61,194 nt of DNA, from positions 1 through 61,194 of the forward strand of contig NZ_CALUYG010000012.1 in NCBI RefSeq assembly GCF_944324935.1. The letters are read 5' to 3'. The first letter of the stretch is position 1. Each line of letters opens with the position of its first letter. Shown here in pieces: positions 33,773 through 57,078 of this stretch. The notes below the pieces were generated by a model. It saw only the letters and a program-made list of their open reading frames with translations. It made no database searches and was not told the origin of the DNA. Source of the stretch: an uncultured Desulfovibrio sp. (GTDB lineage Bacteria; Desulfobacterota; Desulfovibrionia; Desulfovibrionales; Desulfovibrionaceae). The translations under genes and the position numbers were made by a program.

Positions 33773-35178
33773 GGCTGTATCCTTTCTGTGAGCGCGGCGC
33801 GCAGCAGTGTGGCCACGCAGGCATGATCCTGCTCGCTCAGCGTGCGGGGGTCAAGGCAAAATCCGTGGTCGTCCAGCCGGCCGATCAGGGGCGGGTCGCC
33901 ATCCAGCAGGCGCTGGCGCAGCTCGACGGCGGAACAGCGCGTCGGCTCCAGACAGACGAGGGTGGTCGGCAGATCGTATTGAGGGAACGCGCCGCCGCCC
34001 ACGCGGGAGACGTCTTCGCGCAGCCGTATGGAGCAGGCGTCGCCCAGCGCGCGGCGCAGACGGGCGGCAAGACGCCGGGCCGCACGGGCCAGCGCTTCGG
34101 GAGCCAGAAAGATCATGCGCAGCGTGGGGATGCGCTCCCGCGCCAGCTCCGGGTCGCAGTAGAGGCGCAGGGTGGCTTCCAGCGCGGCCAGGGTGAGCTT
34201 GTCGCAACGCAGGGCGCGGGTGAGCTGATTGGCCTTGAGGGCGGCGATGCGCTCCCGGCTGCCCGCGATGATGCCGGCCTGTGGGCCGCCCAGCACCTTG
34301 TCGCCCGAAAAGGTGACGATGTCGGCCCCGGCGGCCAGCACCGAGGGCACGGTGGGCTCGTTGGGCAGGCCGCAGGCGCTGAAGTCCGTCAGGCTGCCGC
34401 TGCCCAGATCCTCAAAGACCGGCAGGTCGTGCTGACGGGCCAGGGCGGCCAGCTCTTCCAGCGGTACGGCGCTGTGGAAGCCCAGGATGCGGTAATTGGA
34501 GGTATGCACGCGCATGAGGGCGCGGGTCCGCTCGTTGATGGCGGCGGCATAGTCCCGCAGATGCGTACGGTTGGTGGCCCCCACCTCGCGCAGCGTGGCG
34601 CCGCTCTTGGCCATGACCTCGGGGATGCGGAAACTGCCGCCGATCTCCACCAGCTCGCCGCGCGAGACGATGACCTCGCCGCCCCGGCAGAAGGTATCCA
34701 GCACCAGCAGCACGGCCGCCGCATTGTTGTTGACCGTCATGGCGGCTTGTGCGCCGGTGAGGCGGCAGATGAGCTGTTCCGTCAGTTCCTGTCGCGACCC
34801 GCGCCCGCCGGTACGCAAGTCCAGCTCCAGAGTGGAATAGCCCTGCGCGGCCCGCAGCACGGCTTCGCAGGCTTCAGGCGCAAGGACGGATCGGCCCATA
34901 TTGGTGTGCACCACCACGCCCGTGGCGTTGATGACCGGGCGCAGCCGGGGCCGCAGGGCGGCCCGCACATGGGCCAGCAGCAAGGGCAGATGCGCCGCCA
35001 GGGCGAGCTGGTCAGGCTCGCTCACCCGACCGGCGCGGATGTCCTCGCGCTGCCTGTCCCAGTAGACGGTGACGGCTTCGCGCAGCAGGGGGCGCGGCTG
35101 CGCGCGCAGTTCCGGCGCGCGCTCCAGCAGGGCTGTCAGGCAGACATCGACGGACGGCAGGCAGCGAAAAAGATTCAT
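33769..35178 (-). CDS. selA: L-seryl-tRNA(Sec) selenium transferase
   Basis: PLP enzyme that converts seryl-tRNA(Sec) to selenocysteinyl-tRNA using selenophosphate. The PLP lysine is in TFSGDKVLGGPQAG (about Lys294). The N-terminal INATGVVVHTNMGRSVL and LRTGGRGSR segments are hallmarks. The start at 35178 is chosen for GGAGGAA upstream, giving 469 residues (typical). It is translationally coupled to folC upstream and the M18 gene downstream (4-bp overlaps). Its presence supports reading UGA as Sec in the 53-kb HesB-like gene; selB, selC and selD are not in this window. Confidence 0.96.
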   Translation of the reverse strand: MNLFRCLPSVDVCLTALLERAPELRAQPRPLLREAVTVYWDRQREDIRAGRVSEPDQLALAAHLPLLLAHVRAALRPRLRPVINATGVVVHTNMGRSVLAPEACEAVLRAAQGYSTLELDLRTGGRGSRQELTEQLICRLTGAQAAMTVNNNAAAVLLVLDTFCRGGEVIVSRGELVEIGGSFRIPEVMAKSGATLREVGATNRTHLRDYAAAINERTRALMRVHTSNYRILGFHSAVPLEELAALARQHDLPVFEDLGSGSLTDFSACGLPNEPTVPSVLAAGADIVTFSGDKVLGGPQAGIIAGSRERIAALKANQLTRALRCDKLTLAALEATLRLYCDPELARERIPTLRMIFLAPEALARAARRLAARLRRALGDACSIRLREDVSRVGGGAFPQYDLPTTLVCLEPTRCSAVELRQRLLDGDPPLIGRLDDHGFCLDPRTLSEQDHACVATLLRAALTERIQP

Positions 35179-46878: not shown

Positions 46879-47766
46879 TCAGCCGCGACAGGCGTCCAGT
46901 TCCCGCAGCCAGTCAGGCGTCAGGGCTTCGGGCAGGCGGCGGATGAGATCGGCCACCGGCGTGTCGGGCCGGGGCTCGCAGAGGACGGCAAGGCGGCGTG
47001 CGCTGCGGGAGGCGGCCTGACAGGCGGCGCAGAGGGGCCAGCCCGCCGCGGCGAAGGCGGTGACGAGGCCGGTCACGATGTCGCCCGTGCCGCCGATACA
47101 TTCCATAGCCGGGACGGAGGGGCTGTCGATGACGGCACGCACCTCGCCCTCACAGACGATGTGGTCCGCCGCGCCCTTGATGAGCAGATGGCGCGGGCTG
47201 TTGCCGTGCGCCAGCACGCGCGCGAGCAGGGGAGGGATGTTGTGGTCCTCGGCCAGCAGGAAGCCGCGCGTATAGAAGGGGTGCGGGGCCTTCTCGTCCG
47301 CGAGGAAGGCCAGCTCGCCCACATCGGGCGTGAAGAGGTCGTAGGCGTCGGCATAGCCGCTCATTTTGGCGGCGTACATGAAGCCCGCGTCGGCCAGCAT
47401 GAGCGGCGGCCGCGGCAGGGCCTGAAGGGCCAGCAGCACACGGTTGTGCCAGTCCGCGTCCGGGAAAAGGTAATGGAAGGTCAGACCCCGCGGCGCGAGG
47501 CGGGCGGCGTTGTCGCACAGCCAGGCATAGAGGCGGCGGCTGCCGTCGCCCGTACCGACATCCCCGGCCAGCAGGGCGCGAGGGACGTCCGTGCCGAGGG
47601 CTTCGCAGGCCAGCAGGGCCGTGGCGGCCAGCGCGGCGGTGCCGCGTTCCACGGTCACGCCGTGACCGTCCGGCAGGCGAAGGGTCGCGCCGTCCAGCCG
47701 CAGGGGGCCGTCGGGCGGGGCCAGGGAAAAGTCCGCGTCCGGCACGCTGCCCGCTATGCACCACAT
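46879..47766 (-). CDS. ribokinase-like kinase / NAD(P)HX dehydratase-like protein of the selenium cluster
   Basis: A 295-residue protein of the ribokinase/YjeF-C fold. The C-terminal anion-hole motif ECIGGTGDIVTGLV, with the Asp of GTGD, is diagnostic, and LTPDVGELAFLA matches the substrate-side segment of NAD(P)HX dehydratases. The actual substrate is unknown. ATG 47766 has GGAGG upstream and overlaps the DUF3343 gene by 13 bp. It is the last gene of a yedE-yedF-DUF3343-kinase operon, an arrangement I recall from other selenium loci. Confidence 0.75.
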   Translation of the reverse strand: MWCIAGSVPDADFSLAPPDGPLRLDGATLRLPDGHGVTVERGTAALAATALLACEALGTDVPRALLAGDVGTGDGSRRLYAWLCDNAARLAPRGLTFHYLFPDADWHNRVLLALQALPRPPLMLADAGFMYAAKMSGYADAYDLFTPDVGELAFLADEKAPHPFYTRGFLLAEDHNIPPLLARVLAHGNSPRHLLIKGAADHIVCEGEVRAVIDSPSVPAMECIGGTGDIVTGLVTAFAAAGWPLCAACQAASRSARRLAVLCEPRPDTPVADLIRRLPEALTPDWLRELDACRG

Positions 47767-48332
47767 GCGAGCTGCCTCCGGGCTTCTTCAAAGGCTTTCT
47801 GCAGGCTGTAGCAGCACAGCGTCTGGCCCAGGCGCAGCGGCTCGACGGCCGTCTCCAGCTTGCAGCCGCACAGCTTGTGCGCCAGCCACGGCACGTCCGG
47901 GCAGCCGCCGCCGGAAATGTTGACGATGCGGCCGTCCCGCGTGTCCACGGTGATCTTCATATTGGCCGCCCGCACCATGAGCCAGCGATCCAGCCGCTTC
48001 ACCTGACAGAGCGAGACGGGCTCCAGCAGCTCATCCGTGACCACGGCCACCTGACGCGGCTCCTGTCCTCCCTGCCGCAGGCATTCCAGGACGGCCGCCT
48101 GCCGCAGGAGCGGAAAGGCGATGACCATGTCGCAGCCGGTCTGCAATTGCGGGGGCGGGCCCTTGACCTCCACGGTGAAGCCGGCGTCGCGCAGGCGGCG
48201 TTCGGCCCGGATGACGTCGCCCGTCTGGTCGAAGACCAGCAGGGCCGTGGCGGCGGGTGCGGCGGACGGACGCGCGTCGCGGGAGGCGGCGGGCCGCAGC
48301 AGGGAGGAGAGGCGTTGCAGCAGGGTCGGCAT
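47754..48332 (-). CDS. DUF3343-domain protein (putative Se/S carrier)
   Basis: A 192-residue protein. Residues about 25-95 resemble the DUF3343 domain (LLVFDQTGDVIRAERRLRDA, then GPPPQLQTGCDMVIAF). The rest is a Cys-containing region with VSLCQVKRLD, GGGCPDVPWLAHKLCGCK and a final SLQKAFEEARRQLACG. Such proteins accompany YedE/YedF and are thought to carry selenium or sulfur. The gap to yedF is 65 bp; the ribosome site before ATG 48332 is weak. Confidence 0.7.
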   Translation of the reverse strand: MPTLLQRLSSLLRPAASRDARPSAAPAATALLVFDQTGDVIRAERRLRDAGFTVEVKGPPPQLQTGCDMVIAFPLLRQAAVLECLRQGGQEPRQVAVVTDELLEPVSLCQVKRLDRWLMVRAANMKITVDTRDGRIVNISGGGCPDVPWLAHKLCGCKLETAVEPLRLGQTLCCYSLQKAFEEARRQLACGA

Positions 48333-48397
48333 GGCGGTGGTCGTCTTTTTGTCGTGCGGCGGGCGGGCAGGTCGTCCGTCCGCCGCACGGTCAAGGG

Positions 48398-48610
48398 TTA
48401 CTTGTGGATGTCGAGCCGGAAATCCGGCCCGTCTTCGGTGACGTCCACCGCAAAGCCGCCGTTGCGGGCGGCGCGGCTGACGTTCTCGCGGCTGGCCTCG
48501 TTGTCCACCAGCACGGTGAAGCTGCCGTCGGGCATCTTTTTGGCGGCGGTGAGGAAGAGGAGGACAGGTTGCGGGCAGGAAAGGCCGCGCGCATCGATGA
48601 GTTCAGCCAT
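48398..48610 (-). CDS. yedF: YedF-like sulfurtransferase/selenium-metabolism protein
   Basis: A 70-residue TusA/SirA-fold protein with the family motif DARGLSCPQPV (Cys12, CPxP). TusA members carry persulfide; those next to YedE are assigned to selenium metabolism and may carry selenide at the Cys. The start codon overlaps the yedE stop by one base (TGATG), indicating coupling. Unlike some YedF proteins it lacks a fused second domain; the DUF3343 domain is on the next gene. Confidence 0.85.
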   Translation of the reverse strand: MAELIDARGLSCPQPVLLFLTAAKKMPDGSFTVLVDNEASRENVSRAARNGGFAVDVTEDGPDFRLDIHK

Positions 48611-49704
48611 CAGGCGCCTCGCTTGCAGTTGAAGAATCCGATGATCAGGCAGACGGCCAGTCCGCCCAGCGCGCCCAGCATGCCGTGGGGGCCGATGCCC
48701 GTGGCGCTGGAAGCGAACCCGAAGTTGTGGGCCACGGCCGCGCCGAGGATGAGCCCGACCACAAAGACCGCGGCGTCATTGTCGCCCTCGCCGGCCATGA
48801 AGAGCTGGCGGCCGGGGCAGCCGCCGGCCAGGGCAAAGGCCAGCCCGGCGGTGACCATGCCGAGGAAGTTCCAGAGGCTCTCGGTGTGGGCGATGGGCTG
48901 GCCTTCCATGCCGGGATGAAAGCCGCCCAGCGCGACATTGAGCACGAGGGCGCAGGCCAGCATGGCCAGCACGCCCAGGGCCAGATGCCATTGCTTGAAC
49001 AGGAGCACGTCACGGATGGCCCCCATGGTACAGAAGCGGCTGCGCTGGGCGAGCACGCCCACCACAAGGCCCGCCACCAGCGAGAGCAGCACGGGCGCGT
49101 GCGCCGCGCCGGGGCCCTTGAGGGAATAGAAGAGCACGCCGCTCTTGTCCTGCCCCTCCACCTGCGGATTGAGCAGGAGCAGGACCAGCAGGGCCAGCAT
49201 GATGCCGGGCAGGATGAGCCCGCTCACCTTGCCCTGACTCTGGCTGCGGCCCAGCGAGAAGCCCTGCCGGAAGAAGAGCGTGCCGATGCCCACGCCGACG
49301 ATCAGGCCGGCCAGCCCGAAGAGGGCGTTGGCGTCCCCGCCGGCGAGCCGCATGATGACGCGCCAGGGGCAGCCCAGAAAGACCAGCGCGCCGATGGCCG
49401 CCACCATGCCCAGCAGCAGGCGGATGATGGGCGAGGAGCCGCCGCGCGCCCGGTACTCGCCAAAGAGCAGGGAGGCGCAGAGCGCCCCCAGCACCATGCC
49501 GAGGATCTCAGGCCGCAGATACTGGACGATGGCCGCGCGGTGCAGGCCGATGGCTCCGGCGATGTCGCGATTGAAGCAGGCGACGCAGATGCCCATATTG
49601 CCGGGATTGCCCATGCGTTGCAGCAGGATGGCCAGCGCGCCCAGCACGAGCCCGGTGCAGACCACGCCCGCCGTGGTGGAAAAGAAGTTGGAACCGGTTT
49701 TCAT
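48610..49704 (-). CDS. yedE: YedE-family putative selenium transporter
   Basis: Polytopic inner-membrane protein of 364 residues with about ten helices, related to YeeE/YedE thiosulfate/selenium transporters. Conserved Cys segments are CVACFNRDIAGA, FLGCPWRVIMRLAGGDANAL, RSRFCTMGAIRD and GGCPGRQLFMAGEGD, all typical of YedE. ATG 49704 has a perfect AAGGAGGT upstream. It is the first gene of the selenium operon. With selA and a Sec-containing HesB-like gene in the same window, a selenium rather than thiosulfate role is likely but not proven. Confidence 0.88.
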   Translation of the reverse strand: MKTGSNFFSTTAGVVCTGLVLGALAILLQRMGNPGNMGICVACFNRDIAGAIGLHRAAIVQYLRPEILGMVLGALCASLLFGEYRARGGSSPIIRLLLGMVAAIGALVFLGCPWRVIMRLAGGDANALFGLAGLIVGVGIGTLFFRQGFSLGRSQSQGKVSGLILPGIMLALLVLLLLNPQVEGQDKSGVLFYSLKGPGAAHAPVLLSLVAGLVVGVLAQRSRFCTMGAIRDVLLFKQWHLALGVLAMLACALVLNVALGGFHPGMEGQPIAHTESLWNFLGMVTAGLAFALAGGCPGRQLFMAGEGDNDAAVFVVGLILGAAVAHNFGFASSATGIGPHGMLGALGGLAVCLIIGFFNCKRGA

Positions 49705-50053
49705 GAAACCTCCTTGTGATGCGGATGACACAAGGCAGCGCGGGACGTGGCGCGCGGGTCGCAACCGCGACGGCAGGGACGGAAAACCGGTCAGGAGCGG
49801 GAAGGAGGGAGCCTCTTTGCAGCCGCCGGCCGACGCTTCCGTCCGCAGGCGCTCCACACCGTGGAGCGACCGGATAGACGTCAGTTGCGATACGACGGCA
49901 TGGCGCTGCTTCCTCCGAGAATGTCCGCCCTTCCTCTCTCGGTGGAAGAGCGGCTGAAAAAGCTTAGGCAAGCCCGTGGAAAAGGTCAAGGCAGGGCGAT
50001 GGAAAAAAGCGTCCGCCCGACGTGTCCGTGTGACGGTGCGGCCCCGGCGGGCT
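49705..50053. other. 350-bp leader region of the selenium operon
   Basis: Between the ATP-grasp gene end and yedE. On the minus strand, TTGACC is followed after 17 bp by TAAGCT (about 49989-49960), a candidate promoter that would give a leader of about 250 nt. The leader holds a short inverted repeat CTCCAC/GTGGAG near 49852-49866 but no riboswitch that I can recognise. Confidence 0.35.
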
Positions 50054-51259
50054 TCATGGCAAGGAGAGGAGATAGGGGCGCAGCGTCGGGCGGGTACGGA
50101 TGTCGCCGTGATCGACGATATGTCCGATCATGGCGTCGTCGGTGGTGATGATCGGGCTGGGGCCGCGACGGAAGCCCAGCCCGCAGGGGACTTCGGCGGA
50201 AATGAACACGCCCGCCTGATAGTAGTGCGTGCCGTCGCAGACCAGTTCCGCCTTTTGCTGATAGATGAGGGGCTGTCGGGCATAAAAGCCGTCGGTGCGG
50301 GTGACCGCCTGGCCATTTTCCCAGATGGTGATGTTGCGGCCCTCGCGGCCCCAGATGGGTTTGGCCACCTGGGCCACATCCGGCAGGGGGGAGCTGGCGG
50401 CGGGCAGAAAGTGGGGATTTTCGGGAAAAAGGCGCTGCACATGGGCCAGCAGGGCCTTGCTCTGATAAACGGCCGCGTACGGGGGATTGCAGACCACAAG
50501 GCCGGGATCCCGCTCCATGCTGCGCAAAAGCTCGCGAGCCATCCGCTCGTCCTCAAGAAAGAGCAGATCCCAGGGGACCATCTTGATCATAAGATGAAAT
50601 ATCTTGTCGATATAGGCGCCGCTTTTGTCCACGGAGCACAGGCCGTGATCCCTGTCGATGCAGACGTCCGTCCAGTGCAGGCAGGTCCCCGTCAGCCCGG
50701 CGTGTTTCGCGGCGTCCTTGATGATGAAGGTGTTCAGATCATCCTCGCCGTCGGCGGCGTTGGTGAACAGGACGCCCCGTCCGGCATGGGCGGGGAGCAG
50801 TTCGGCAAAGAAATCCCGCAACTGCTCGAACAGGCTGTTGTACTGGAAATGGTCCGGGTCAAGCTCGTGGTATCTCGCAAGCGCGTACTGCAGGGAGGAG
50901 ACCTCAAAGATGGAGAAGGGCGTATCGGCGTTGAATTCCAGCAGCTTGATGGGCAGACCGGCAAGCCCGCCCGCAAAGTCGAAGCGGCCCAGCATGTGCG
51001 GATGCCGGATGTACTCGCGGTAAGTGCGCTCGATGACCGGCACGGCATAATCCGGTATGCCCAGTTCGTCCAGACGCCGTGAGGCGATGAAGTATTCCGC
51101 CGCGCTGTCCACGTCCCGAAAGCAGCGCTCAGCCGCCGCGTAATAGGCGTCGGCCTCCTCCTGTGAGATGATGAGGATGTCCGAACACTTTCCCTCCTTC
51201 GGGTAGCCGAGGGCGTCGTACAGACTGTCCGGGAACGGAGGAAAACGGAACAGATCCAT
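50054..51259 (-). CDS. glutathionylspermidine synthase family ATP-grasp protein
   Basis: A 401-residue member of the GSP_synth (YgiC/YjfC-like) group. Recognisable segments are LLEFNADTPFSIFEVSSLQ, VAKPIWGREGRNI (ATP-grasp lysine/Arg region) and the C-terminal VFISAEVPCGLGFRRG. These proteins lack the amidase half of E. coli Gsp, so the reaction is probably an ATP-dependent ligation to an unidentified peptide or amine. It begins 2 bp after the upstream small membrane-protein gene; the two form an operon like E. coli ygiB-ygiC. Confidence 0.85.
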   Translation of the reverse strand: MDLFRFPPFPDSLYDALGYPKEGKCSDILIISQEEADAYYAAAERCFRDVDSAAEYFIASRRLDELGIPDYAVPVIERTYREYIRHPHMLGRFDFAGGLAGLPIKLLEFNADTPFSIFEVSSLQYALARYHELDPDHFQYNSLFEQLRDFFAELLPAHAGRGVLFTNAADGEDDLNTFIIKDAAKHAGLTGTCLHWTDVCIDRDHGLCSVDKSGAYIDKIFHLMIKMVPWDLLFLEDERMARELLRSMERDPGLVVCNPPYAAVYQSKALLAHVQRLFPENPHFLPAASSPLPDVAQVAKPIWGREGRNITIWENGQAVTRTDGFYARQPLIYQQKAELVCDGTHYYQAGVFISAEVPCGLGFRRGPSPIITTDDAMIGHIVDHGDIRTRPTLRPYLLSLP

Positions 51260-51875: not shown

Positions 51876-52424
51876 CTATGCCCCGGCCTCATCTGCCCGG
51901 GAGAGGCGCACCTCGTCCAGTCCGTCCCGTTCCTCAAGGAGCACGTCGATACGCTCCTCGCGGCGCGTGGCCACGCTGCGGCCCACATAGGTGGCCTCAA
52001 TGGGCAGTTCGCGGTGGCCGCGGTCCACCAGCACGAGCAGTTCCACGCTGCGCGGCCGGCCGTAATCCTGGAGCGCCTCCAGCGCGGCCCGGATGGTGCG
52101 CCCGGTAAAGAGCACGTCGTCTACGAGAAGGATGTTCGCCGCGTTCACGGGGGCGGGGATGCTGGACTGGCCGATCTGCGGTTTGCCTTCCAGGCTCGTC
52201 CAGTCGTCACGATAGAGATTGATGTCCAGGGAGCCCAGGGGCAGCGGATGTCCCACCCGGCGGGAAAGCAGGTCGGCCAGGCGGCGGGCCAGATCCACCC
52301 CGCGGCGCTGGATGCCCACGAGCTGGAGGCTTTCGCACCGGCCGTGCCGCTCGTAGATCTGGCTGGCCAGCCGGTCGAGGATGCGGGAGATCTCTTCCCT
52401 GTTCAGGATGACATGGGCATTCAT
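51876..52424 (-). CDS. pyrR: pyr operon regulator / uracil phosphoribosyltransferase
   Basis: A 182-residue PRTase-fold protein of the PyrR family. The PRPP loop VDDVLFTGRT is at residues 101-110; LVGIQRRGVDLARRL and LDINLYRDDW are PyrR-specific segments. In Gram-positives PyrR binds pyr mRNA leaders; in Desulfovibrio-like bacteria it may act only as a uracil PRTase. ATG 52424 has GAGGAGG upstream. No pyr genes are adjacent and no obvious PyrR-binding loop was seen here. Confidence 0.93.
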   Translation of the reverse strand: MNAHVILNREEISRILDRLASQIYERHGRCESLQLVGIQRRGVDLARRLADLLSRRVGHPLPLGSLDINLYRDDWTSLEGKPQIGQSSIPAPVNAANILLVDDVLFTGRTIRAALEALQDYGRPRSVELLVLVDRGHRELPIEATYVGRSVATRREERIDVLLEERDGLDEVRLSRADEAGA

Positions 52425-52636: not shown

Positions 52637-52669
52637 TCAACAACCCCAAAAAACATCATCGGAGGAGCC

Positions 52670-52993
52670 ATGCTCACGTTGACCGAACAGGCCATCAGGG
52701 AACTGGAAGCCTTTTTTGCCGACCGTGACCGCGAACCCATTCGCGTGTACCTTGCCCCGGGCGGATGCTCCGGGCCGCGGCTGGCGCTGGCGCTGGATGC
52801 GCCCGGCGATGACGATCAGTCGATGGAAGCCGGGGGCTTCAGTTTCTGCATCCGTAAGGATCTGCTGGATCAGGTGGAGGCCATCACCATCGATGCCTCG
52901 CCGCTGGGCTTCGAGCTGACCCCCAAGAATCCTCTGCCCAACACGGGCGGCAGCGCCTGCGGCGGTTGCTGCGGCGGCTGCGGCTCACATTAA
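52670..52993 (+). CDS. HesB/IscA-like protein, Cys form
   Basis: A 107-residue Fe-S-biogenesis-like protein. The HesB pattern is LAPGGCSGPRLALALD with Cys33, followed by a later FSFCIRKDLLDQ and a Cys-rich tail GGSACGGCCGGCGSH. GGAGGAG precedes ATG 52670. It is 18 bp upstream of a close paralogue that has UGA in place of Cys33. A GGCGC/GCGCC hairpin with loop TGGAT (52789-52803) sits 20 nt beyond the Cys33 codon, exactly where the paralogue has its SECIS-like hairpin. Unlike true IscA, the last Cys motif is not C-G-C. Confidence 0.88.
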   Translation: MLTLTEQAIRELEAFFADRDREPIRVYLAPGGCSGPRLALALDAPGDDDQSMEAGGFSFCIRKDLLDQVEAITIDASPLGFELTPKNPLPNTGGSACGGCCGGCGSH

Positions 52994-53011
52994 CATACTG
53001 AGGGAGCATAT

Positions 53012-53335
53012 ATGCTGACCGTATCCGAAGACGCCCGCAAAGAGCTTGAAGCGTACTTTGACGGGAAGGAAAAGAAGACCATCCGCATCTTTCTGGCCCC
53101 GGGAGGCTGAAGCGGCCCGCGCCTTGCGCTGGCTCTGGACGAGCCTCTCGATTCTGACGACGTCATCGAGGAAGCCGGTTTCCGCTTCTGCATCGACAAG
53201 GAACTGCTGGATCAGGTCAAGGGCGTGAGCATCGGCATAAGCTACATGGGCTTCACCCTTGATCCCGAAGTGCCGCCGGCATCTGCCGGCGATTCGGGAG
53301 GTTGCGGGTCCTGCACGTCCTGCGGAACGCACTGA
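53012..53335 (+). CDS. HesB-like selenoprotein (in-frame UGA at 53108-53110 read as Sec)
   Basis: Reads MLTVSEDARKELEAYF, then LAPGG-Sec-SGPRLALALDEP, FRFCIDKELLDQV, GISYMGFTLDPE and a GGCGSCTSCGTH tail; 107 residues with Sec33. It parallels the preceding gene residue for residue, with UGA where that has UGC. A hairpin GGCTC/GAGCC with loop TGGAC (53131-53145) lies 20 nt after UGA, with its loop G at 53137, 27 bases beyond the UGA; this fits the bacterial SECIS layout. HesB-like selenoproteins are a known family, and selA is in the window. A nonsense mutation is unlikely because the downstream frame is intact. Confidence 0.88.
53131..53145 (+). promoter_or_regulatory. candidate bacterial SECIS hairpin
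   Basis: A 5-bp stem GGCTC/GAGCC and a five-base loop TGGAC with G at loop position 2. It lies inside the coding sequence just downstream of the UGA, as SelB-binding elements do in bacteria. Confidence 0.65.
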
Positions 53336-53631: not shown

Positions 53632-56600
53632 ATGACCGCGGAAAAACTCCTTCCCTATCTTGAGGCCCCGGCAGGGGAATGGCGTCTGGAACGCAGCGGA
53701 CTGGCCACGCGCTGCCGTCTGGCGGCCGAAGCGCTGGCGGCGGGACGCAGCGCCTGCCTGCTCGTGCGTGACCGTGACGAGCTGCACAATGCCCGTGCGC
53801 TCGTATCGCTCTTCATCCCCGAACTCTCCGTGGATGATCCCCCGCTCACCCGGCCGGCATGGGCCTCCCCCTGTCTTGCGCTGCCGGATACGGCGGGCAT
53901 ACGGCAGGGGAGGGACGTCTGGGCCGCGGGCATGGCCGCCTTTCGCGGGCTGGCGGGCGCGGGGCCGCATTGCGTGGTGGCCGGGCCGGAAAGTCTGCTG
54001 CTGCGGCATCCGCCACGAGATTTTTTCGCACAGACCGGCCTTGATCTTGCGCGCGGGCAGGACTTTCCCCCGGAGCTCCTGCTGGAGCAGGCCGTGGAGT
54101 GGGGATATGAGCGCGTGCCGCTGGTCAACCGCCCCGGCGACATGGCCCGGCGCGGGGACATCCTGGACATCTTCCCTCCCGGTTATGCCCGGCCGCTGCG
54201 GCTGGAATTTTTCGGCGACGTCATCGAGGAGATCCGCCTCTTTGACCCGGAAAGCCAGCGCTCGCTCCAGAATCTGGAGGAATTCAGTCTGCTGCCGGCG
54301 CTGCCCTTCGCCTGCGCCCCGGCCGATATGCTGCGCTGGAAAGAGCGCCTGGACGGCCTGTTCGCCCAGGGGCGGCTGAGCGAAAACCAGCATTACTGCC
54401 TCAAGAAGGCGCTGCACGGCGGCGGGGTCGGCCTGTTCCCCGGGCTGCTGCATGACGATGCCTCGTTGCTGGAAGACTGGCTGCCCGCGGACGCGCTCTG
54501 GCTCCTGCCCGGCAGGGCGGACGCCGAGGATGCCCTTCGCGAGGGCGCGCTGCGCCTGCACCGGCTGCTGGAAGAGGAGGGCGGCGATCTGGCCCAGCCG
54601 GCGTCGCTCTGCCTGCGTCCCGACCCGCAAAAGGCCCCGTGGCAGGACAGGGTCGCCATCTTTGCCGAACCGCTGGTCATGGGGATCGAAGAGCAGGGCG
54701 CGGCCCTGCCGGAACGCCGTCTGCACGGCTTTGCCGACCTCTTCCCCCTGCCCGGCGCGGCGGACAGACCGTGGCAGCAGCTTGCCACGGGCCTGCGGCA
54801 GTGGCAGGCCGAAAAGCGGCAGGTCATCCTGAGCTTTGCCTCCGGGCGCAGCCGCAACAAGTTCCTGAAGCTGGCCGAACAGGACGGCATCGTGCCGGCC
54901 CTGCGCTATGCCCCGGAACAGCACGGGCTGTTTGCGCTCGTTTCGGGCTTTCGCGGCGGCGTGGAGCTTGCCTGGGACGACAGTCTGCTGCTCGGCGAGG
55001 ACATCCTCTACCCCCGGGCGGAAAAGACGCCGCGCGTGGCCTCCCGCGCCTTCCGGGGCATGGACAGCTTCGACGACCTGAAGCCCGGCGCGCTGCTGGT
55101 GCACAGGGATTACGGCATCGGCCGCTTCGCCGGGCTGGAGCATATCGACCACAGCGGCACGGGCAATGATTTCCTGTTGCTGGAATACTCCGGCAACGAC
55201 CGCCTCTATGTGCCGGTGGACCGTCTGGGCCTTGTGCAGCGCTTCAAGGGCGGCGACGGCGCGGAGCCCGCGCTGGACAGGCTGGGCGGTCCCTCCTGGG
55301 CCAGCGGGCGGGAAAAGGCCCGCAAGGCCATTGAGAAGATCGCCGCCGATCTCGTGGAGATGTACGCTTATCGCAAGGTGGCCAAGGGCTTTCGCTATGA
55401 CCCGCCGGGCGAGCTCTACCGCGAGTTCGAGGCCACCTTCGGCTTTGAGGAGACGCCCGATCAGGCCCGCGCCATCCAGGATGTGCTGGACGATATGGAC
55501 AAGCCCGAACCCATGGACCGTCTCGTCTGCGGGGATGTGGGCTTCGGAAAGACGGAAGTGGCCCTGCGGGCCGCCTTTCGCGCGGCCTCCGAAGGGCGTC
55601 AGGTGGCGCTGCTCTGCCCGACGACCGTACTGGCCGAACAGCATTTCCAGACTTTCCGGGCGCGTCTGGCCGGCTTCCCGGTCAATGTGGGGCTGCTGAG
55701 CCGTTTCGTGCCGCGCGCCCGGCAAAAGGAAACGCTGGCCGCGGCCGCGGCAGGGCAAATAGACATCCTCATCGGCACGCACCGGCTGCTGTCGGCGGAC
55801 GTCAGCCTGCCGCATCTGGCCTTGCTCATTCTGGATGAGGAGCAGCGTTTCGGCGTGCGTCACAAGGAAAAGCTCAAGGCGCTCAAAAAAAACGTGGACG
55901 TGCTGACCCTCACGGCCACGCCCATCCCCCGCACCCTGCAATTGTCCATGTCCGGCATCCGGGATCTCTCGGTCATCGAGACCGCGCCGCAGGAGCGCAA
56001 GCCCGTGGCCACGGCCGTTCTGCGGCGGGACGAGAACGTCCTGAGGCAGGTGCTGGAGCGGGAGATCGCCCGGGAGGGGCAGGTATTCTGGGTCTACAAC
56101 CGGGTGCAGGGCCTGCCGCGCGTGGCCGACTATGTGCGGAGCCTCGTGCCCCAGGCCCGTGTGGGCATGGCGCATGGCCAGATGGGCGAGGTGGAGCTGG
56201 AAGAGAACATGCACAAGTTCTGGCACGGCGAGCTGGATGTGCTGGTCTGCACCTCCATCGTGGAGTCCGGTCTCGACTTCCCCCGTGCCAATACGCTGGT
56301 GGTGGATCAGGCGCAGATGTTCGGGCTCGGCCAGCTCTACCAGCTGCGCGGCCGCGTGGGCCGCAGCGACCGGCAGGCCTACGCCTTCTTCGTCGTGCCG
56401 GATGCCGAACGCCTGTCCGACGTGGCCGAAGAACGCCTGCGCATCATCATGGATATGGACTATCTGGGCGCGGGCTTCCAGGTGGCTATGGAAGATCTGC
56501 GCCTGCGCGGCGCGGGCAACATCCTGGGCGAGGTGCAGTCCGGTCACATGAGCCGTGTGGGCCTCGATCTCTATCTGGAGATGCTGGAGGAGGCCGTCTC

Positions 56601-57078
56601 CCGCCTCAAGGGCACGCCCGCGGCCATCGTGGCGGAAACAGAGCTCAACATCGGCTTGCCTGCCCATATCCCGCAAAGCTATATTGCGGACGGTCGCGAG
56701 CGGCTGCGCTGCTACAAGGCGCTTTCCTCCGCCGTGGGCGGGGCGGCCCGCGAAGAAGTGGCGCTCTCGCTGCGCGATCGTTTCGGCGCCTTCCCCGTGG
56801 AACTGGAGAATTTTCTGGCCGTGCTGGACTTCAAGCAGTTCCTCGGCGAAGTGCAGGTGCAGCGGGCCGACATCACGCAGGATCATGTCAAGCTCGTCTG
56901 GGCCGACGGGCAGGATGCCGTCTCCCCGGAAAAACTGGTGGCCCTCGCCGCCGAGACGCCCGGCGCGCGCCTGCTGCCCCCGGCCGGGCTCTTCTGCCCC
57001 CTGCCGCAGGGCATGAGCGTGGGCGAGGGACTGAGCGCCATCCGCAGCAGGCTTGAGACCGCCCGTCTGCCCCGTTAG
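53632..57078 (+). CDS. mfd: transcription-repair coupling factor
   Basis: Removes RNA polymerase stalled at DNA lesions and recruits UvrA. The 1148 residues show the full layout: UvrB-like N-terminal region (with the SFASGRSRNKF segment near 400), the polymerase-interacting CarD-like domain near 481-560 (LLVHRDYGIGRFAGL), the RecG-type translocase with GDVGFGKTE near 631-639, DEEQ near 734-737 and the TRG-type LRGRVGRSDR segment, and the C-terminal D7 domain. No ribosome site is evident before ATG 53632. It appears intact. Confidence 0.96.
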   Translation: MTAEKLLPYLEAPAGEWRLERSGLATRCRLAAEALAAGRSACLLVRDRDELHNARALVSLFIPELSVDDPPLTRPAWASPCLALPDTAGIRQGRDVWAAGMAAFRGLAGAGPHCVVAGPESLLLRHPPRDFFAQTGLDLARGQDFPPELLLEQAVEWGYERVPLVNRPGDMARRGDILDIFPPGYARPLRLEFFGDVIEEIRLFDPESQRSLQNLEEFSLLPALPFACAPADMLRWKERLDGLFAQGRLSENQHYCLKKALHGGGVGLFPGLLHDDASLLEDWLPADALWLLPGRADAEDALREGALRLHRLLEEEGGDLAQPASLCLRPDPQKAPWQDRVAIFAEPLVMGIEEQGAALPERRLHGFADLFPLPGAADRPWQQLATGLRQWQAEKRQVILSFASGRSRNKFLKLAEQDGIVPALRYAPEQHGLFALVSGFRGGVELAWDDSLLLGEDILYPRAEKTPRVASRAFRGMDSFDDLKPGALLVHRDYGIGRFAGLEHIDHSGTGNDFLLLEYSGNDRLYVPVDRLGLVQRFKGGDGAEPALDRLGGPSWASGREKARKAIEKIAADLVEMYAYRKVAKGFRYDPPGELYREFEATFGFEETPDQARAIQDVLDDMDKPEPMDRLVCGDVGFGKTEVALRAAFRAASEGRQVALLCPTTVLAEQHFQTFRARLAGFPVNVGLLSRFVPRARQKETLAAAAAGQIDILIGTHRLLSADVSLPHLALLILDEEQRFGVRHKEKLKALKKNVDVLTLTATPIPRTLQLSMSGIRDLSVIETAPQERKPVATAVLRRDENVLRQVLEREIAREGQVFWVYNRVQGLPRVADYVRSLVPQARVGMAHGQMGEVELEENMHKFWHGELDVLVCTSIVESGLDFPRANTLVVDQAQMFGLGQLYQLRGRVGRSDRQAYAFFVVPDAERLSDVAEERLRIIMDMDYLGAGFQVAMEDLRLRGAGNILGEVQSGHMSRVGLDLYLEMLEEAVSRLKGTPAAIVAETELNIGLPAHIPQSYIADGRERLRCYKALSSAVGGAAREEVALSLRDRFGAFPVELENFLAVLDFKQFLGEVQVQRADITQDHVKLVWADGQDAVSPEKLVALAAETPGARLLPPAGLFCPLPQGMSVGEGLSAIRSRLETARLPR

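Follow-up and report, generated by a model that had tools for sequence, protein, structure and literature searches.

The window analysed here, the whole stretch of 61,194 nucleotides from an uncultured Desulfovibrio sp., contains two adjacent IscA/HesB-like genes, the second of which has an in-frame UGA at codon 33 and very probably encodes, judging from its sequence and those of its relatives, a real selenoprotein of the known family NF038090. We consider it highly likely that the pair as a whole is best explained as a selenocysteine (Sec) form together with a cysteine (Cys) paralogue that does not need a SECIS element, an arrangement shared across the bacterial family; indeed, tandems of the two forms occur commonly in the Desulfovibrionaceae, in most cases next to pyrR. 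The case is built from computation, by which the protein family, the conservation and covariation of the SECIS, the Sec machinery of the genome and the nesting of Cys copies among Sec copies were observed.

The gene pair

Both genes lie on the forward strand with a gap of 18 nt, the Cys copy first (Table 1). The Cys copy runs from ATG to TAA, with GGAGG at 52661-52665 ahead of the ATG, and the final stop of the Sec copy is TGA. Over their aligned part the two proteins are 56% identical, and the genes are 60.5% identical in DNA. The initial annotation had described paralogues alike along their length, whose codon 33 is TGC in one and TGA in the other, each followed by a hairpin at 20 nt, and was accurate in all of these respects, including the coordinates.

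Table 1. Features of the window that bear on the IscA/HesB-like pair
Feature	Position	Strand	Remarks
selA (Sec synthase)	33799..35166	-	TIGR00474, 581.2 bits (cut-off 267.9)
pyrR, divergent neighbour	51876..52424	-	NF003549, 221.3 bits (cut-off 138)
Cys copy of IscA/HesB-like pair	52670..52993	+	107 aa; open frame; NF038090 match
TGC codon 33 of Cys copy	52766..52768	+	
Hairpin GGCGC-TGGAT-GCGCC in Cys copy	52789..52803	+	Starts after 20 intervening nt from TGC33
Sec copy of IscA/HesB-like pair	53012..53335	+	107 aa; in-frame TGA at codon 33; NF038090 match (C written for U)
UGA codon 33 of Sec copy, very probably read as Sec	53108..53110	+	TGA here in 205 copies of the assembled set
Bacterial SECIS-type hairpin GGCUC-UGGAC-GAGCC	53131..53145	+	Starts after 20 intervening nt from UGA33
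mfd, downstream neighbour	53632..57078	+	TIGR00580, 941.9 bits

With C written for U, the Cys and Sec copies score 95.8 and 94.7 bits against NF038090 (IscA_HesB_Se), both above its cut-off of 85, and 27.5 and 45.6 bits against TIGR01911 (HesB_rel_seleno), both under its cut-off of 66.35. Pfam assigns both proteins to Fe-S_biosyn. Sequence relatives in the PDB are 1nwb, 2apn, 1r94 and 1s98, and in an alignment to 1nwb Sec33 falls on the Cys of PGGCSG, the first conserved Cys. An AlphaFold model of the Sec copy (C for U) has a pLDDT of 84.2, with a tail (residues 94-107) of mostly low confidence, and its top Foldseek match is 1x0g, an IscA with a [2Fe-2S] cluster (E 7e-7). By sequence and by predicted fold alike, proteins of the IscA/SufA type are the closest ones with a solved structure. 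Column 33 and C98 are invariant in 33/33 aligned sequences, again with C written for U.

The SECIS-type hairpin of the Sec copy

To place the hairpin among its relatives, loci were fetched from 149 family genomes and 79 genus genomes. The 231 copies in the fetched loci comprise 110 with TGA, 110 with TGC or TGT, and 11 with neither Cys nor TGA at the key place (one of these has no aligned key codon), the last being excluded from the state counts. Identical regions were merged for codon resampling, which reduced the 110 TGA regions to 94 and the 110 Cys regions to 104. A wider set, of 183 distinct TGA regions within the phylum, was made up of the family TGA copies, 28 outgroup TGA copies, 60 phylum TGA copies, all of them picked because a search had already shown TGA, and named relatives.

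The full 5-bp stem, in register 20 nt past the TGA, is present in 177 of these 183 regions. When the 3' letters were shuffled the mean was 143.4 full stems and the maximum in 1000 trials was 150, so that 177 was never reached. Within the family, all five pairs form in 91 of the 94 distinct TGA regions, against 2.1 expected from synonymous-codon resampling, and RNAalifold of the 183 regions returned exactly this hairpin. The third pair is C-G in 160 regions and U-A in 19, the latter spread over six families; at the fourth, 174 regions have U-A and five, from two families, have C-G. In the listed regions with a U-A third pair, Val (GTT or GTC) with GAA or GGA replaces GCT with GAG, an amino-acid replacement on one side being matched by a change on the other. 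At the third position of the Ala codon 92 of the 94 Sec copies have T, and the remaining two are the TGA copies of L093 and L094, in which an intact stem lies one codon nearer the TGA (at 17 nt and not 20). In the TGA copies of L092, L201, L224 and L236 the usual stem is disrupted, perhaps through decay, an assembly error or the use of another structure.

The accessible part of PMC13188914 gives a bacterial SECIS (bSECIS) model with a loop of 3-9 nt, a stem of 4-16 bp, a G in the first two loop positions, 16-37 nt from UGA to loop and a minimum free energy of at most -7.5 kcal/mol. The hairpin of the Sec copy agrees with the geometry of this model (loop UGGAC of 5 nt with G second, 5 bp, 25 nt from UGA to loop); its energy is -6.9 kcal/mol alone (15 nt) and -8.4 kcal/mol in a 33-nt segment with flanks. 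When 53 nt were folded from the UGA it was not the minimum-energy structure (z -0.05), and with folding begun 12 or 15 nt downstream of the first base of the UGA it was. Such a start is nearer to what the ribosome leaves free. Taken together with the Sec machinery of the genome and the restriction of TGA copies in the genus to SelA-positive genomes (see below), the conserved stem and its compensatory changes bear out the suggestion in the initial annotation that the hairpin of the UGA gene is a SECIS element.

Arrays in the family and their history

The fetched set covers 117 genomes of the family, of which 91 carry both forms, 19 just the Sec form and seven just the Cys form. Exactly one TGA copy is found in 89 of the 90 multi-copy arrays, none in one array, and two in no array; the array loci were picked from matches, and these proportions are therefore not those of a random sample. 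With U for a Sec copy and C for a Cys copy, the orders of the arrays besides that of the window are UC in 59, CU in 18, CCU in four, UCC in four, CUC in three and CC in one, and in three of the UC pairs (L105, L110 and L124) the copies are more than 1 kb apart. Some pairs, for example those of L036, L044 and L112, are accompanied by extra paralogues whose key residue is Ala, Glu or Asp. pyrR lies within the fetched stretch of 84 of the 89 multi-copy family arrays other than that of the window. mfd is present in 45 of 48 loci of the window's own genus, as against none of 70 loci of the family's other genera. A search across the phylum gave a match in 165 of 297 genomes, and many of those listed are single TGA copies.

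A FastTree phylogeny of 266 rows contains 26 changes between Cys and Sec, compared with a mean of 87 when the states were shuffled. For a second tree we chose 101 representatives from the 266 rows after dropping those under 80 bits, and masked the columns of the key codon and of the SECIS; the alignments behind the trees are 94 to 106 columns long. The 101-row tree has 27 changes, at least 17 of them forced by its starred branches, and none of 200 bootstrap trees had a single change. Shuffled labels on that tree gave a mean of 33.3 changes, with 11-12 of 500 shufflings as low, so that state is weakly clustered. A single ancient Cys clade in the family, imposed by constraining the 42 family Cys rows of the 101, was rejected (AU p 3.4e-38). 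If Sec was never regained, the family contains 26 all-Cys clades (24-27 in the bootstrap trees), and we favour that assumption because the Sec copies share the SECIS.

Of the outgroup copies fetched, 28/33 have TGA. Since the outgroup is mostly TGA and the Cys copies are nested among Sec copies, Sec is likely the older state. The initial annotation had asked which state is ancestral, allowing that the hairpin of the Cys gene might be either a relic of a Sec ancestor or the scaffold from which Sec arose; the first direction of change is supported as the likely one, while the Cys hairpin as a conserved relic or scaffold is not supported (see below).

The nesting of the Cys copies means either that Sec-to-Cys duplicates arose recurrently or that an old pair has undergone gene conversion. 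The latter, in which the grouping of Cys and Sec copies by genus reflects conversion within one ancient tandem pair and not many duplications, is a serious rival to repeated duplication because the locus is shared, and in our judgement it falls only somewhat short of an even chance. That pyrR adjoins so many of the multi-copy arrays speaks for a locus shared by descent, and some pairs are much alike, with identity that is uneven along the gene (L019, L082 and L091). However, the order of the copies varies, even inside genus g22 and the window's own genus, and the Cys-Sec-Cys array of L082 has an old upstream Cys copy together with a downstream one that clusters with the array's own Sec copy (100/97).

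The look-alike hairpin of the Cys copy

The geometry of both hairpins was compared with the published bSECIS model, as the initial annotation had suggested, and both fit. Since the hairpin of the Cys copy also fits, geometry alone does not discriminate, and by itself it accepts a hairpin that is not conserved. Among the 104 distinct family Cys regions only six have the full stem, four of which belong to the clade of the window. In the window and its five closest relatives (L077, L078, L079, L080 and L081) the stem is present in four of six and absent in two: the stem needs GCG, and the sisters L081 (GCT) and L080 (GCC) lose it by silent differences. Silent sites are free to vary in the Cys copies at large, where the third position of the Ala codon is C in 55 regions, G in 22, T in 18 and A in nine, and RNAalifold of 110 Cys regions found no structure. 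For Leu-Ala-Leu-Asp-Ala-Pro encoded at the codon usage of six window genes, the chance of the hairpin is about 0.06. A conserved element in the Cys gene is thus rejected, and with it the proposal of the initial annotation that SECIS geometry had been retained there, for the stem shows neither the conservation nor the covariation in relatives that a retained element was expected to have. We believe that the hairpin of the Cys copy is probably a by-product of coding sequence.

A weaker form of descent deserves consideration, namely that the hairpin is a SECIS relic of a Sec ancestor which happens to have been kept in this lineage; we regard this as unlikely. The Cys copies do descend from Sec ancestors, the position and loop are those of the Sec copy, with the geometry of a bSECIS, and the Cys set lies slightly above the codon null, with six full stems against 1.0 expected under synonymous resampling (none of 2000 resamplings was as high) and 272 pairs in total against 238. 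Because of this slight excess of pairing, a faint residue of SECIS ancestry is possible in Cys copies, including that of the window. Against a relic, the stem in the window-type clade is GGCGC/GCGCC and not the near-universal GGCUC/GAGCC, two of six clade genomes have lost it silently, the pair is old at the protein identity given above, and most other Cys copies lack the stem. Furthermore, when the 3' letters were shuffled by column, the fraction paired was as high in 305 of 1000 trials and six or more full stems appeared in 17 of 1000.

L098 and L019 are better relic candidates than the Cys copy of the window. In L098, a copy on the reverse strand, TGC is followed by an intact GGCTCTGGACGAGCC, and the genome, 89% complete, has no SelA match; together with its close Sec relative L087 and the half-decayed L097 it forms a good fossil SECIS series. 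L019 is a tandem in which the Cys copy (TGT) has a complete SECIS motif and the two proteins are 83% identical.

Selenium machinery and genomic neighbourhood

In addition to selA in the window, the same genome has SelB over its cut-off on another contig, a tRNA-Sec of 78 bits, alongside a second match of 50.9 bits that likewise clears the gathering threshold, and a SelD that itself contains an in-frame TGA. By a hand tally of 79 genus genomes, a TGA copy is found in 43 of the 58 whose SelA scores above the cut-off and in none of the other 21 (Fisher 7e-10), some of the SelA-negative genomes being incomplete, down to 63%. That UGA33 is an ordinary stop, the remainder being decayed or a separate frame, is where a standard-code gene finder would end the gene, but we reject it as extremely improbable, since the protein is conserved beyond the UGA in relatives up to 95% identical, the frame reaches C98 and beyond in 33/33 aligned sequences, and TGA copies in the genus are confined to SelA-positive genomes.

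The window that holds selA and the HesB pair also contains a selenium-metabolism cluster on the minus strand (47754-49989), with a YedE-type transporter (TIGR04112, 465 bits), a YedF/TusA-like small protein and a Se/S-carrier (PF11823). A glutathionylspermidine-synthase-like ATP-grasp protein (PF03738) is encoded at 50054-51259, also on the minus strand. A search of the whole window against Rfam at the gathering threshold returned tmRNA as the sole match, and a promoter and terminator scan gave no signal above chance.

Relation to known systems

HesB-like selenoproteins in Desulfovibrio are already known, as is a remnant SECIS behind the Cys codon of a HesB-like gene. The accessible text of PMC1794560 (2006) lists D. 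vulgaris and D. desulfuricans as carriers of the HesB-like selenoprotein, in line with the statement in the initial annotation that such proteins are known, and the legend to Figure 4 of the same source describes the remnant SECIS in Desulfitobacterium hafniense (Zhang et al., 2006), so that the initial view of a Cys/Sec tandem with retained SECIS geometry as rarely remarked on is not supported as far as a remnant SECIS in a Cys HesB gene is concerned. The HesB gene of D. vulgaris Hildenborough with TGA is DVU_1382, a name given in PMC1914089. That HesB-like selenoprotein (TIGR01911; PMC1794560; PMC13188914) shares with the window proteins, as far as the accessible portions of these sources go, the UxGP motif and Sec at the first IscA cysteine, but differs in that both window proteins fall below the TIGR01911 cut-off. 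For HesB-like proteins, the available part of PMC1794560 counts two Sec-to-Cys events and no Cys-to-Sec event, whereas our sample asks for many more state changes.

Like the window pair, NF038090 holds both Sec and Cys forms, and we see no structural difference; what is added here is the tandem arrangement, in which an array has a single Sec copy. E. coli IscA and SufA (1x0g, 1r94, 1s98 and 2d2a) share with the window proteins the fold and the place of the key Cys. In contrast to these, the Sec copy of the window, 16-26% identical in its structural matches, has Sec at the key place and a longer Cys-rich tail. In Methanococcus maripaludis, one genome encodes a protein in both a Sec and a Cys form, a HesB-like selenoprotein has been shown by mutagenesis and 75Se labelling, and a Sec/Cys switch regulated by HrsM is reported for methanogenesis enzymes, according to the accessible part of PMC11097638. 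The two forms in the window, in contrast, are separated by 18 nt on one strand. Among the openly accessible papers that our literature searches listed, none deals with tandem Cys and Sec forms of HesB. How often Cys twins occur, and the pattern of one Sec copy per array, may be worth following up by specialists.

Model and implications

Based on these observations, we propose the following model for the pair. SelB with Sec-tRNA would bind the hairpin 20 nt after UGA33, and Sec would be inserted where the IscA fold has its first conserved Cys, a putative cluster or metal ligand. Both the insertion of Sec and the binding of metal or Fe-S are predicted from the genes. The upstream paralogue would use Cys at that place and would no longer need a SECIS, its hairpin presumably following from the codons for Leu-Ala-Leu-Asp-Ala-Pro. 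The pair would be one case of an arrangement, common in the family and located beside pyrR, in which a single Sec copy is accompanied by at least one Cys copy of Sec ancestry. As for a division of labour, the Cys form may serve under selenium shortage, or both forms may join in one mixed oligomer.

More tentatively, and with a little less than even confidence, we suggest that the Sec HesB gene repeatedly spawns a tandem Cys twin at the pyrR locus, that selection keeps one Sec copy per array, and that the forms act together, for example in a mixed Sec/Cys oligomer of IscA type or as selenium-replete and selenium-poor versions. If true, the change from Sec to Cys would be far commoner in one bacterial family than the few published events imply, and all stages of SECIS decay would be visible side by side. 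The Sec gene is a clean example of an RNA signal in a coding frame, in which the SECIS imposes coordinated changes on silent sites and even on amino acids (Ala-Glu to Val-Glu, with GAG to GAA). The copies of the family form a natural decay series, from a SECIS intact with Sec, through a motif intact after Cys (L098 and L019) and half-decayed (L082 and L097), to one that is lost, so that how and why bacteria trade Sec for Cys becomes testable in closely related genomes.
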